From Methylovirgula sp. (GTDB taxonomy: Bacteria > Pseudomonadota > Alphaproteobacteria > Rhizobiales > Beijerinckiaceae): 38,090 nt of DNA. The position numbers and the translations under genes are program-made. The stretch covers positions 1 through 38,090 of the forward strand of contig JARLIV010000171.1 of assembly GCA_031291555.1 (NCBI GenBank). Direction: 5' to 3'. The first letter of the stretch is position 1, and the number at the start of each line of letters is the position of its first letter. Positions 2,456 to 12,467 of this stretch are shown piece by piece. The notes below the pieces were generated by a model. That model was given only the letters and a program-made list of their open reading frames with translations, made no database searches and was not told the origin of the DNA.

Positions 2456-2607
2456 CACTGCCGCGTCGCTATGGCATTTGAAATTTCATGGACCAGCATC
2501 AGCGTAGCGGCGCCGACGCGCGGATTTTCGTCCGGCCAGACATCAGTGAACCAGGCCAAAAGCCGGACGGCGATCGCCACACGGATCGACCAGATAAGGC
2601 GCCTCAC
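2455..2607 (-). CDS. Small hypothetical protein (50 aa, GTG start, hydrophobic segment)
   Basis: VRRLIWSIRVAIAVRLLAWFTDVWPDENPRVGAATLMLVHEISNAIATRQ; GTGA overlap with the upstream gene and TGATG overlap with the downstream gene. Absent from the ORF track. Confidence 0.5.
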   Translation of the reverse strand: MRRLIWSIRVAIAVRLLAWFTDVWPDENPRVGAATLMLVHEISNAIATRQ

Positions 2608-3833
2608 GGTGCAATACTCTCCAGTTCAAGGATTTGATCGAGGCTCAATGCCGACTTCATTCGACGGCGGCGGCCGAAGTGGATTCCCAGCTTGTCGGTC
2701 GCGTATTTGCTGACCGTCATGGCATGGCGGTCGAGCGCAATCGCGAGGTCGGCAATTGCGATGCCGTTGGCGAACGCGATGCGGAATGCAGCCAGCTCGT
2801 CGGCGGTGTATGGGCGCCAGTAGCCATGCTTCAGCCCGAGGGTCCACGCGCGGTTCAGCACCGCCATGCGCGGCCGGCCCATAGCCGTCGCCAACTCGCG
2901 CGTGTTCATTTTGCCGTAGTGCTGGCGCAGAAATTTCTCTTCCTGAAGTGTCCAGATCGGAGCGATGCGCCATCCGGCAGTCTTTTCGTGCGTGCCCTGC
3001 AGGCCCAGCTCTTTCACTTTCCAACGGATAGAGGAGGGCGTGCGGCCGAGGCGCGTACGCAACGGCGTCAGGCTGGCGCCGGTGCGATATGCCTGGCGCA
3101 GTAACTGCTCTTCTTCGGGCAACCATGGGCGCCCCCAGCCACGGCCATAGCCAAGCTTGCGGATGCGCGATCCGAACCCCGCTTTGGTGCGACGCGGATG
3201 ACCCTCCGCGACGAGTGTTTCGATGATCGCAAGGTATTTGTGGCCCTGCTCAGCGAGTTCTAGCGCTCGATCGAGCTCGGAAACGGACCACCCGGGCGGG
3301 TGGTCAGGATGTGCGATGCAAAGCTTTGATGCTCTGCTGCGAACCGCTGCAATGCTTCGACCGATCAGCACACCGACCAGGCCGGGCGGCAACGCACGGC
3401 GATAGCCTTCGCGCAATTGCGCGTCTTCCCACGCCGACCATGCAGATTCTGCTAGCTCGGCCAGCCCGAGCAACTGCGCACGCGCATAGATCGAAGCGCA
3501 CGAGCGGCCGAGCTCCTGCGCAAGCACGGCGCAAGACGCGGAGCCGTAGCGCCCAACCAGCACGGCGTCTTCCAGATCGGTCCACGCGAGACGGGTCGAT
3601 CGACGCAGGCCGAGGCGCCACGCGCGATCGGCCACACCCGATACAGGCCGGCCGAGCACGCGCGCGATCTCGTCAAACGGCAGGGCTTTGCCGAACAGAT
3701 CGCGCAAGCGCTCGTCTTCGTCGGGCAGCCAGGCGTTGGCGCGGAACGCAATCTCTCGCAACGGATGCACCGTGTCGGCATCGGGCGAGCAAGGTACTAG
3801 CTCGACAAGATCGATATCGAGATCGTCTATCAT
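2604..3833 (-). CDS. Multi-domain DNA-binding protein with about seven tandem Myb/SANT-like (GcrA-like) HTH modules
   Basis: Repeated W-x(3-4)-E-x(2)-L ... (R/K)A-x-x-LGL units begin at WLPDEDERL, WTDLEDAVL, WSAWEDAQL, WSVSELDRA, WLPEEEQLL, WTLQEEKFL and YTADELAAF. Confidence 0.7.
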   Translation of the reverse strand: MIDDLDIDLVELVPCSPDADTVHPLREIAFRANAWLPDEDERLRDLFGKALPFDEIARVLGRPVSGVADRAWRLGLRRSTRLAWTDLEDAVLVGRYGSASCAVLAQELGRSCASIYARAQLLGLAELAESAWSAWEDAQLREGYRRALPPGLVGVLIGRSIAAVRSRASKLCIAHPDHPPGWSVSELDRALELAEQGHKYLAIIETLVAEGHPRRTKAGFGSRIRKLGYGRGWGRPWLPEEEQLLRQAYRTGASLTPLRTRLGRTPSSIRWKVKELGLQGTHEKTAGWRIAPIWTLQEEKFLRQHYGKMNTRELATAMGRPRMAVLNRAWTLGLKHGYWRPYTADELAAFRIAFANGIAIADLAIALDRHAMTVSKYATDKLGIHFGRRRRMKSALSLDQILELESIAP

Positions 3834-5044
3834 GACAGCGCCACGACCTTGATATCTGTGAGGCGCTGGCGCAGCCGGGCGTGTAACCGAGCAATGCGAC
3901 CGGGGCCGCGTGGCATTGTTTCGACCGCCGCCATTGCGGACAGGATATCCAGCGCGTCATCCACTTCGGACACCGGCGCGCCCAGGTGCAGCGCGAGATC
4001 TCCGCTGGTGGTCGCGCTTGGCGAGATCTTACGCAGCGCGGCAACGGTGCGAGCGGCGGTCGCAGCGTTGGGATCGAGCAGGAACGCATCGATCGCGCCG
4101 CGCCCCTTCGTAACCAGATGAACATCACGGCTTGTCGCGGCGCATGATCGCAAGGAATCGAGGTCGAGTAGCTCGCGCGCGCGGTCTGCGCCATGGGCTG
4201 CGGACTCGATGAGATCAGGCGTGCAACCCAGGTGTCGCGTGATCGACGGATCGATCTTGATGAGCTCGGGAACGTCGCAGAGCGCCGGCCCGAACGCAAA
4301 AAACATGCCGGGCGCCAGATTGCGAAATCGATCGGCGTTCGTGCGGTCGAAACCGAGCAAGTCTGCCGCGCGCGCGATATCGCGGTCGAACACGTTGATG
4401 CCGACGAGAAAGTTCTGCAGCTCGGAAACAACCGACGTTGCGAGCTTTGCCAGGCGCTGGGTCGCAATGACCGGCGCGACCCCGCGCTTGCGGCCGCGGG
4501 CGCACACATCGGTCAATGTAGCGACTCCGATGCGCCGCGTTTCTGCATCGCGCGCGCTGCCGGCGAGATGCGGGGCGAGCAAGTGACCTTCGTCGATCGC
4601 CAGCAGGACCGTATTCGCCCAATATTCGCGATCGACAGCGATCAGCCCCGATAGAAATGCCGATGCGCGCAAGATGCGGTCTTCGGGATCGAGGTCGGTC
4701 AGATCGACGTGGAGGTTGATCCGGTGCTGCCGGCCGCGAACCGCCGCAGCGGTCAACCCTTCGTTGGTAAGCTCGGCCGCGCGGATAGTGGTTGCGCCAA
4801 TGTGTTCCGCTAGATTGCCGAACTCGCCTTCCGGGTCGACGATCATCACGGTCAGATAATCGAATGCCTCTTCGACGATCTTGCGCAACGTGAAAGATTT
4901 GCCGGCGCCGGAACTGCCCTGGATCAAAAGACGACCCGCCATCAATTTGTCGAGATCGAGATTGATGACGAGCCCGCTGGTGTGGCCGATCGGCACGCGG
5001 TTTGCAGGCGGTACAACGCTGGCGACGGCAGAAAGGGCACTCAT
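3830..5044 (-). CDS. HerA/FtsK-like P-loop ATPase (DUF87-like)
   Basis: Walker A LLIQGSSGAGKSFTLRKI, MIVDPEGEFGNL, Walker B VLLAIDEGHLLAP, GRKRGVAPVIATQRLAKL. Confidence 0.8.
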   Translation of the reverse strand: MSALSAVASVVPPANRVPIGHTSGLVINLDLDKLMAGRLLIQGSSGAGKSFTLRKIVEEAFDYLTVMIVDPEGEFGNLAEHIGATTIRAAELTNEGLTAAAVRGRQHRINLHVDLTDLDPEDRILRASAFLSGLIAVDREYWANTVLLAIDEGHLLAPHLAGSARDAETRRIGVATLTDVCARGRKRGVAPVIATQRLAKLATSVVSELQNFLVGINVFDRDIARAADLLGFDRTNADRFRNLAPGMFFAFGPALCDVPELIKIDPSITRHLGCTPDLIESAAHGADRARELLDLDSLRSCAATSRDVHLVTKGRGAIDAFLLDPNAATAARTVAALRKISPSATTSGDLALHLGAPVSEVDDALDILSAMAAVETMPRGPGRIARLHARLRQRLTDIKVVALS

Positions 5045-6765: not shown

Positions 6766-7279
6766 CGACCGCCTCCGTCGTCAGACTGAGCTCTTCCGGT
6801 GTCGGCCAATGCCAAAATCCCTGGGCACCCCGCATGGGGACAGACGCATCCCAGACCTCGATATCCAGCATGGGCCAACCCCAGTTGGCGTGTTCATCTC
6901 GATCGCTGTCGTTGGCGCGGGGGACGCTGAATTCTTCGGCAATTTCCGGGCCGGGGCGGGGTTCGCCGACGATTGCGGTGCCCAGGCCACAGGCCATGGG
7001 GAGCTCCCCTCCGATGGCCATGCCAAGTATTGGCAAAGCCTTTTCAGGTACAAGGCAGGTTTCCGCTGCATCGACACGATGATCGTCCGACCTGTCCCGC
7101 ATGGTGAGAACGCGAAACAGATCGAGTGTTTCGAGCAAATTCATCTTGCGCGCGGCGGCATGGATGACGATGCGCTGGCCGATGATTGAACGCGGCGCGC
7201 GCCAGCCACGGAATTCGTAGGGCTTTGCGCCCGCAATGATCAGGCTGGCCCAGGGCTGCCAGATGGTGAGCGCTTTCAT
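6758..7279 (-). CDS. ASCH domain-containing protein
   Basis: MKALTIWQPWASLIIAGAKPYEFRGW is a classic ASCH N-terminus. Confidence 0.85.
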   Translation of the reverse strand: MKALTIWQPWASLIIAGAKPYEFRGWRAPRSIIGQRIVIHAAARKMNLLETLDLFRVLTMRDRSDDHRVDAAETCLVPEKALPILGMAIGGELPMACGLGTAIVGEPRPGPEIAEEFSVPRANDSDRDEHANWGWPMLDIEVWDASVPMRGAQGFWHWPTPEELSLTTEAVDA

Positions 7280-8268
7280 GCCGCACCGCCCAGGCCGAAG
7301 GACTCGGTCAGCTTGGTGAATTGGACGGCGGGGAGGTTGATGCCGGTAGGGATAGCGTTGTGCTCGACGCCATCGAGCAGGCGGCCGGCGGCTTTCTTTC
7401 CGACGCGGGTGAGGCTGGCCAACTTGAATTGTCGCGCCAGCGCGCTATCAAACAAGTCAGGTGACTGGCATCGACCGTCCTGATCGATTACTTTGATATT
7501 GGCCCAAGAATTGCGAACATAGGGCGACCACTCACCCCACTGCTTAAAGAAATAGGCGATGCCTCGCGGCGCGCACCAATCCCGCGTGGCGCGTTGCCAG
7601 TCTGGATGCATCGGGCGCGCATTCGGGCCGGATTCTCCGCCACCGATTATCTGGTGGACAAAATCCCAGCCTTCCCAGTCGACGGGACCGAGCGCCGGCT
7701 CGTAACTGACGAATTTCACTGCGCCGGGCGTGGCGCGGAAATCCTCGCGGCGTTCATCGGCACGGGTCTGATCCTCAACGCTGACGCCGAGCCAGACATT
7801 CGGGAGGGGCCACTGCCAACGCGTCGGCAAACCGCCAAGGTATCGGCATTGATCGAGCACGCGCTCCGGCGTGGCGGGATCCTCGAAATAGCGACGCATG
7901 TGCGTGCTACGCTTGGTCAGGAACAAGTGGATATGCTGGAGCGTCAGCGCCGCGACGGCAAGTTCGCGATCGATCCATTCGACCGGTACGGATTCATGCC
8001 AGGCATCGCCGTGCGCGTTCCAGAATATCCGGCGCGGGCGTCGCCAGGACAGCGGGCGCCGGAGCCAGGTCTCGTTGAGCCGGACGGCGCCGGTCCAGAC
8101 ATGGCCCGCTTTGCTTTCCTGCGTCAGGCCGTTTGACGGGTGGTGGGGGCGCCCCATGCCGCCGGCGCGCATGGCGAAGCAATTGGCGCAGCCTGGCGAG
8201 ATCGGCGTGCACCCGCTGATCGCGTTGACGGTCGCATGACACCATTCGATGTTGCTGTTGTCAGCCAT
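7276..8268 (-). CDS. Phage Gp37/Gp68 family (DUF5131) protein
   Basis: NIEWCHATVNAISGCTPISPGCANCFAMR...HLFLTKRSTHMRRYF...NVWLGVSVEDQTRADER...IIGGGESGPNARPMHPDWQRATRDWC...FFKQWGEW. Confidence 0.92.
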   Translation of the reverse strand: MADNSNIEWCHATVNAISGCTPISPGCANCFAMRAGGMGRPHHPSNGLTQESKAGHVWTGAVRLNETWLRRPLSWRRPRRIFWNAHGDAWHESVPVEWIDRELAVAALTLQHIHLFLTKRSTHMRRYFEDPATPERVLDQCRYLGGLPTRWQWPLPNVWLGVSVEDQTRADERREDFRATPGAVKFVSYEPALGPVDWEGWDFVHQIIGGGESGPNARPMHPDWQRATRDWCAPRGIAYFFKQWGEWSPYVRNSWANIKVIDQDGRCQSPDLFDSALARQFKLASLTRVGKKAAGRLLDGVEHNAIPTGINLPAVQFTKLTESFGLGGAA

Positions 8269-12062: not shown

Positions 12063-12467
12063 ATGATAGGGGCCCGGATCAAAGCGAGGCTGGCAGAGCT
12101 CAAACTAACGCAGAGCTACCTGGCAAGGCAGGTTGGGGTGAGTGCGCCGACCATTAGCGAACTTGTGCGTGGGGAATCTCGATCATCAACCCATCTGCAC
12201 GCGATCGCACGCGTGCTGCGCACGACACCTGCATATCTGACCGGTGAAACGGATGACCCATCAATAGACGCGGTGGCGCTTGCATTCTCGCCCGCTGACT
12301 TGGAGTGGCTTGACTTGCTGCGCTCGCTTTCACTGCGCGACCGCCATGCAGTGCGCGTTTTGGCAGAAACTCTTGCGGGAAAACCTCACGTTGCCGGCGA
12401 TCTTGACGAACCCCTATCTGTGCCGACGTTTCAGGATCTCAGGTTGGAATATAAGGGGGAAAAATGA
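12063..12467 (+). CDS. XRE-family CI-like repressor (no recognisable peptidase domain)
   Basis: MIGARIKARLAELKLTQSYLARQVGVSAPTISELVRGESRSSTHLHAIARVLRTTPAYLTGETDDP. Confidence 0.88.
   Translation: MIGARIKARLAELKLTQSYLARQVGVSAPTISELVRGESRSSTHLHAIARVLRTTPAYLTGETDDPSIDAVALAFSPADLEWLDLLRSLSLRDRHAVRVLAETLAGKPHVAGDLDEPLSVPTFQDLRLEYKGEK

Follow-up and report, generated by a model that had tools for sequence, protein, structure and literature searches.

Organization of the locus

The window analysed here, that is, the whole stretch of 38,090 nucleotides of Methylovirgula sp. DNA, constitutes an entire contig of a genome assembly made up of 278 pieces. Its plus strand carries contractile-tail phage genes (large terminase, portal, tail sheath, baseplate hub and wedge), and a repressor-like gene is located at position 12063. 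On the opposite strand, and reading leftward, the genes follow the order DUF5131, ASCH, HerA-like ATPase, array, AAA ATPase, and AlpA-like excisionase, the array being a protein made up of seven tandem Myb/SANT-like modules (Table 1). The plus-strand frame across the array gene is broken by stops. The operon is oriented away from the repressor gene, which suggests early expression. Neither Rfam nor tRNA scans gave a match in the window. With regard to the other products of the operon, the AAA ATPase encoded downstream of the array resembles the proteasome ATPase/Cdc48 group, with scores below the curated cut-offs, and also IetA anti-phage ATPases, while the DUF5131 protein matches the PADLOC candidate defence models PDC-M41B and PDC-M30B.

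Table 1. Features of the array-ATPase locus and of its operon (positions in the window).
Feature	Position	Strand	Description and basis
Array gene	2604..3833	minus	ORF, 409 aa, ATG start; seven Myb/SANT-like three-helix modules
Module 1	3594..3737	minus	Residues 33-80; turn arginine R62
Module 2	3450..3590	minus	Residues 82-128; turn arginine R110
Module 3	3303..3446	minus	Residues 130-177; turn arginine R159
Module 4	3135..3296	minus	Residues 180-233; turn arginine R215; divergent, 6-residue insert before turn
Module 5	2988..3131	minus	Residues 235-282; turn arginine R264; most conserved module among orthologues
Module 6	2820..2960	minus	Residues 292-338; turn arginine R320
Module 7	2670..2816	minus	Residues 340-388; turn arginine R369
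HerA/FtsK-type ATPase (DUF87) with predicted C-terminal winged helix	3830..5128	minus	Pfam, motifs, AlphaFold2, Foldseek, adjacency in relatives
AAA ATPase	712-2373	minus
DUF5131 protein	7276-8268	minus

The array protein consists of seven Myb/SANT-like modules

Short linkers connect the modules of the array protein, which measure 46-54 aa each; the N-terminal tail has about 32 residues and the C-terminal tail about 20. A module-profile search returned seven domains (residues 34-79, 83-125, 131-176, 180-232, 235-282, 293-338, and 340-387). In a leave-one-out test, a profile built from six modules was used to score the held-out seventh, with 2000 shuffles of the held-out module as control. Scores for modules 1 to 7 were 51, 36, 30, 5, 40, 31, and 19 bits, respectively, and were reached by none of the 2000 shuffles except in the case of module 4 (14 of 2000), so that the repeats do align with one another. 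Module 4, whose helices 2 and 3 are separated by an insert, is supported yet divergent. The AlphaFold2 model, computed from an alignment of 31 sequences, shows 21 helices in seven sets of three and a further helix at the C terminus (mean pLDDT 76); its pTM of 0.32 indicates that the single modules are predicted, but not their mutual placement. Each module is thus predicted to contain three helices. Repeated modules of this kind, with a conserved Trp starting helix 1 and a helix-turn-helix (HTH), are characteristic of tandem Myb/SANT-like proteins, among which the array can be placed. The seven tandem modules put forward in the preliminary description were therefore borne out by the module profile, the leave-one-out test, AlphaFold2, and Foldseek, and the seven repeat motifs listed there were all found in the minus-strand translation.

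The top PDB matches of the array in Foldseek were the Myb subunit of SNAPc, c-Myb R1R2R3, and Reb1, all of which contain a series of three-helix Myb modules. With probabilities of 0.96-1.00 but weak E-values (0.003-0.03), these matches denote fold resemblance to tandem Myb proteins rather than family membership; eukaryotic tandem Myb binders carry fewer modules than the array. Pfam gave weak agreement, with Myb_DNA-binding barely above its cut-off and HTH_38, GcrA, HTH_23, and Sigma70_r4 all below theirs. A single module (residues 35-81) resembles the N-terminal HTH of GcrA. However, only the HTH part was matched, and the score of 20.6 bits against a curated Pfam cut-off of 26.9 falls short of membership in the GcrA family; in the array, moreover, the module is repeated seven times. 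The net charge of the array is modest (+12), module 2 being acidic. Its fold, together with basic segments in the turns, recognition helices, and tails, suggests that the protein binds DNA.

A HerA-like ATPase is the constant partner of the array

The most informative fact about the array, absent from the preliminary description, is its HerA-like ATPase partner. The ATPase gene lies directly upstream and shares 4 bp (ATGA) with the start of the array gene; judging from where the likeness to its relatives begins, its true start is probably an ATG near 5044. The product matched Pfam DUF87 above the cut-off, and Walker A, Walker B, TQRLAKL, and RGRKRG are invariant in 24 sequences, in agreement with the motifs expected of a HerA/FtsK ATPase (Walker A, Walker B with the catalytic Glu, and the downstream Gln and Arg motifs). 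AlphaFold2 and Foldseek predict a HerA-like fold with a C-terminal winged helix, HerA being the first Foldseek match, and the conjugation coupling protein TcpA and HerA defence motors also being retrieved.

Among the loci examined, the ATPase gene was found upstream of every intact array. Indeed, array and ATPase occur together in 54 out of the 56 loci holding either, the two exceptions being a truncated array and a contig end (L057 and L058, respectively). The 23 plasmids with a near-full array are the same records as the 23 with a close ATPase, and on viral contigs all eight close ATPases are accompanied by a seven-module array, so the pairing is, by computation, obligate. In most loci the junction between both genes is either a 4 bp overlap or a 12 bp gap, and the identity matrices of array and ATPase correlate at 0.97, as expected for two proteins inherited together as a unit. 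More distant relatives of the ATPase (33-44%) have no detectable array, and some of them look chromosomal, adjoining murI and rpsD. Two distant HerA relatives from phages (L079:5983-7809 and L082:5965-7668; about 570-610 aa) have longer C-terminal regions in which, by inspection, two repeated winged-helix-like units apparently replace the separate array.

Relatives of the array in phages and plasmids

Relatives of the array were found in two phage records from human faeces, in five viral contigs (none with a single-sequence query, five with a three-sequence alignment), in 49 loci of GTDB genomes, nearly all Sphingomonadales, and on 25 plasmids, most of them being 46-54% identical to the protein of the window. 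The initial designation as a phage protein is accurate for the window, with its terminase, portal, sheath, and baseplate genes, but most of the relatives found reside on plasmids or at other loci of alphaproteobacterial genomes. Within the order of one Sphingobium carrier, the array was present in 4 out of 301 genomes, the centre genome counted, which indicates an uncommon and patchy distribution; whole-genome searches in the order and class of the window found no second carrier. In the plasmid records examined, the array was annotated as "hypothetical protein" or was unlisted, with the exception of a fusion to a GHKL ATPase described below.

Gene clustering revealed that viral and plasmid loci have essentially only the array and the ATPase in common, and the pair is probably one DNA-handling unit common to phages and plasmids. 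Among 20 representative plasmid-type loci, a PAPS-reductase-like protein was found in 14 and a GHKL ATPase in 10, and an N6 methylase adjoins the pair in some plasmid loci. In a Qipengyuania plasmid (L063:11962-14913), array and GHKL (HSP90/MutL-like) ATPase form a single fused protein, whereas in many other plasmids this ATPase is encoded by a neighbouring gene of its own. Other individual loci showed further particularities. In the degenerate locus L057:6234-9119, which has no HerA gene, a C5-methyltransferase-like sequence runs into an array without its first module(s). Directly downstream of the array in L005:21215-23452, a 745-aa protein seems, by eye, to alternate other HTH units with Cys/His-rich segments, and gave no match to the Myb-type module profile. 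Eight loci (L044-L050 and L052) from different Sphingomonas/Rhizorhabdus genomes have an identical array core, suggesting a recently spread element, and an "Arthrobacter" contig (L016) whose array is identical to that of Sphingomonas hominis is probably mislabelled or contaminated.

This company of genes bears on whether the pair could be a conflict system, for defence or counter-defence, in which the array would tag DNA, either foreign or from the host, for action by the motor, perhaps with the GHKL ATPase or the methylase. We regard this as quite unlikely. The ATPase does match PADLOC HerA models and mad8 (E 1.5e-13, over nearly the whole mad8 profile), the N6 methylase and the GHKL ATPase occur nearby or, in one plasmid, in fusion, and the DUF5131 gene of the operon matches PADLOC candidates. 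Nevertheless, phage loci are devoid of GHKL and methylase neighbours, the array itself has no PADLOC match, and defence proteins usually diversify whereas the array is frozen, as described in the next section. In addition, the pair has no nuclease or NADase partner. HerA-NurA, SIR2-HerA, and DUF4297-HerA, which were among the fold matches, likewise join a HerA-type ATPase to one dedicated partner, but the partners in these systems are nucleases or NADases, also according to the fold-match entries, whereas here the partner is a DNA-binding array. Since this HTH array without a PADLOC match is the sole constant neighbour of the ATPase, assignment to the HerA defence pairs was rejected.

A frozen architecture

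The number of modules is exactly seven in each of the 53 intact arrays found at the loci. In 19 out of 19 divergent orthologues, and for all seven slots, the nearest neighbour of each module is the module in the same slot, orthologous modules being 46-67% identical and paralogous modules 18-36%. Identity between representative orthologues ranges over 37-87%. Every complete orthologue keeps, in each of its seven modules, an arginine in the turn that precedes the recognition helix. Successive arginines are spaced 48-49-56-49-56-49 in 41 of the 42 complete arrays, despite C-terminal tails that vary widely. Linkers are the most conserved parts of the array, above the helices. The preliminary description had proposed checking whether recognition-helix residues vary across homologues; they do differ between slots, but far less within a slot. 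The constant count, order, spacing, and slot identity imply that modules are not being shuffled or re-targeted. Thus, of the extended, modular DNA recognition initially suggested, the extension is plausible, whereas swappable, variable readers are contradicted. Sequence comparison argues against a modularity of the zinc-finger or TALE type and for an array acting as one fixed reading head, with one family-wide target or geometry.

Some of these features would also suit a protein that coats or condenses DNA in the manner of an extended nucleoid protein, binding through avidity and showing little sequence specificity. The invariant turn arginine of every module could contact phosphate, the linkers are the best conserved parts, and the T5 record gives D5, a protein with Myb-like modules that is described as a double-stranded DNA-binding protein, as DNA-binding and needed for replication and late transcription. 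However, avidity alone does not require recognition-helix positions that are slot-specific and conserved within each slot, and the modest net charge and the acidic module 2 also speak against coating, which we consider very unlikely.

Search for a DNA target

A search for long words shared near the genes in 18 loci retrieved only GC-rich words, with a crude shuffle control in which masked blocks broke up, and a conserved site upstream of the genes was not found in the same search. Within the coding DNA, synonymous-site conservation revealed nothing above the permutation limit. These searches covered DNA near and inside the two genes, and short degenerate sites would escape them. A chromosomal target would explain the lack of a shared site borne by the elements. 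As regards the targets proposed at the outset (an origin, a packaging site or host promoters), they find no support in these results, as no shared site was detected in the genes or in their vicinity and the prophage possesses an ordinary large terminase of its own; the presence of the pair on plasmids likewise fails to support a packaging role.

Comparison with T5 D5 and with transcription regulators

The best PHROG match of the array was phrog_323 (E 2e-47), named "transcriptional regulator, D5-like". T5 D5 (PHROG 323) has in common with the array a phage setting, tandem HTH modules of the Myb type, and DNA binding, which is predicted in the case of the array. Unlike the array, it has 255 aa, only two of its modules score clearly, and no HerA-like partner lies beside it in T5. 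Moreover, hhalign produced one partial alignment with a probability of 51%, and phrog_323 proved to be a generic HTH profile, with matches in 11 out of 14 control genomes. Membership was therefore rejected, and the D5-like family label should be dropped. A Foldseek search against viral models retrieved two unnamed proteins (447 and 462 aa) and, lower down, a Vibrio phage "D5 protein", indicating that viral proteins with multiple HTH are an already known kind.

The PHROG name is one of the reasons for considering that the array chiefly regulates transcription, in the element or in the host, and that the ATPase gene is a mere operon partner. Tandem Myb folds are those of classic transcription factors, and the early expression suggested by the orientation of the operon points in the same direction. 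This reading appears unlikely to us, because a plain operon neighbour is not expected to be the sole gene common to phages and plasmids, because the profile behind the name is generic, and because no conserved upstream site was found.

A putative guided DNA motor

We favour, tentatively and with somewhat less than even confidence, the reading in which the array is a fixed-register reader of seven modules and, in a complex with the HerA-like ATPase encoded upstream, the subunit in charge of recognition or anchoring. According to this proposal, the seven modules would bind successive major-groove segments, in which case the array would span a long sequence common to the entire family. The bound array would then form a complex with the ATPase ring, docking or orienting it on the DNA, and the ATPase would subsequently translocate or remodel DNA as FtsK or TraB do. 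FtsK acts after KOPS recognition and Streptomyces TraB after binding TRS repeats; in both FtsK gamma/KOPS and TraB/TRS, a DNA-recognition element is coupled to the motor. The pair shares with these systems a HerA/FtsK-type motor and a predicted C-terminal winged helix, but its large putative recognition element is a separate protein of seven modules. The pair may serve the element in its segregation, entry or establishment, or may displace other proteins from DNA. Two observations temper the guided-motor reading: tight adjacency equally fits two merely co-regulated genes, and distant HerA relatives occur without a detectable array.

A more specific version, which we see as possible though somewhat unlikely, is that of an undescribed two-gene machine, in which a HerA-like ring motor is addressed by a separate reader of seven Myb-like modules in invariant register to one very long, fixed, family-wide sequence, the cassette being passed between alphaproteobacterial phages and plasmids. 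The literature searchable here contained no account of an obligatory pair formed by a tandem Myb reader and a HerA motor, nor any description of a bacterial seven-module array in frozen register; on the biochemistry of T5 D5 and on MAD8, nothing useful was found. Tandem Myb readers and HerA motors are each already known. If the array does read one long family-wide target, the phages and plasmids of an entire bacterial order would have a common object of action, and the motor would be loadable at a chosen site.
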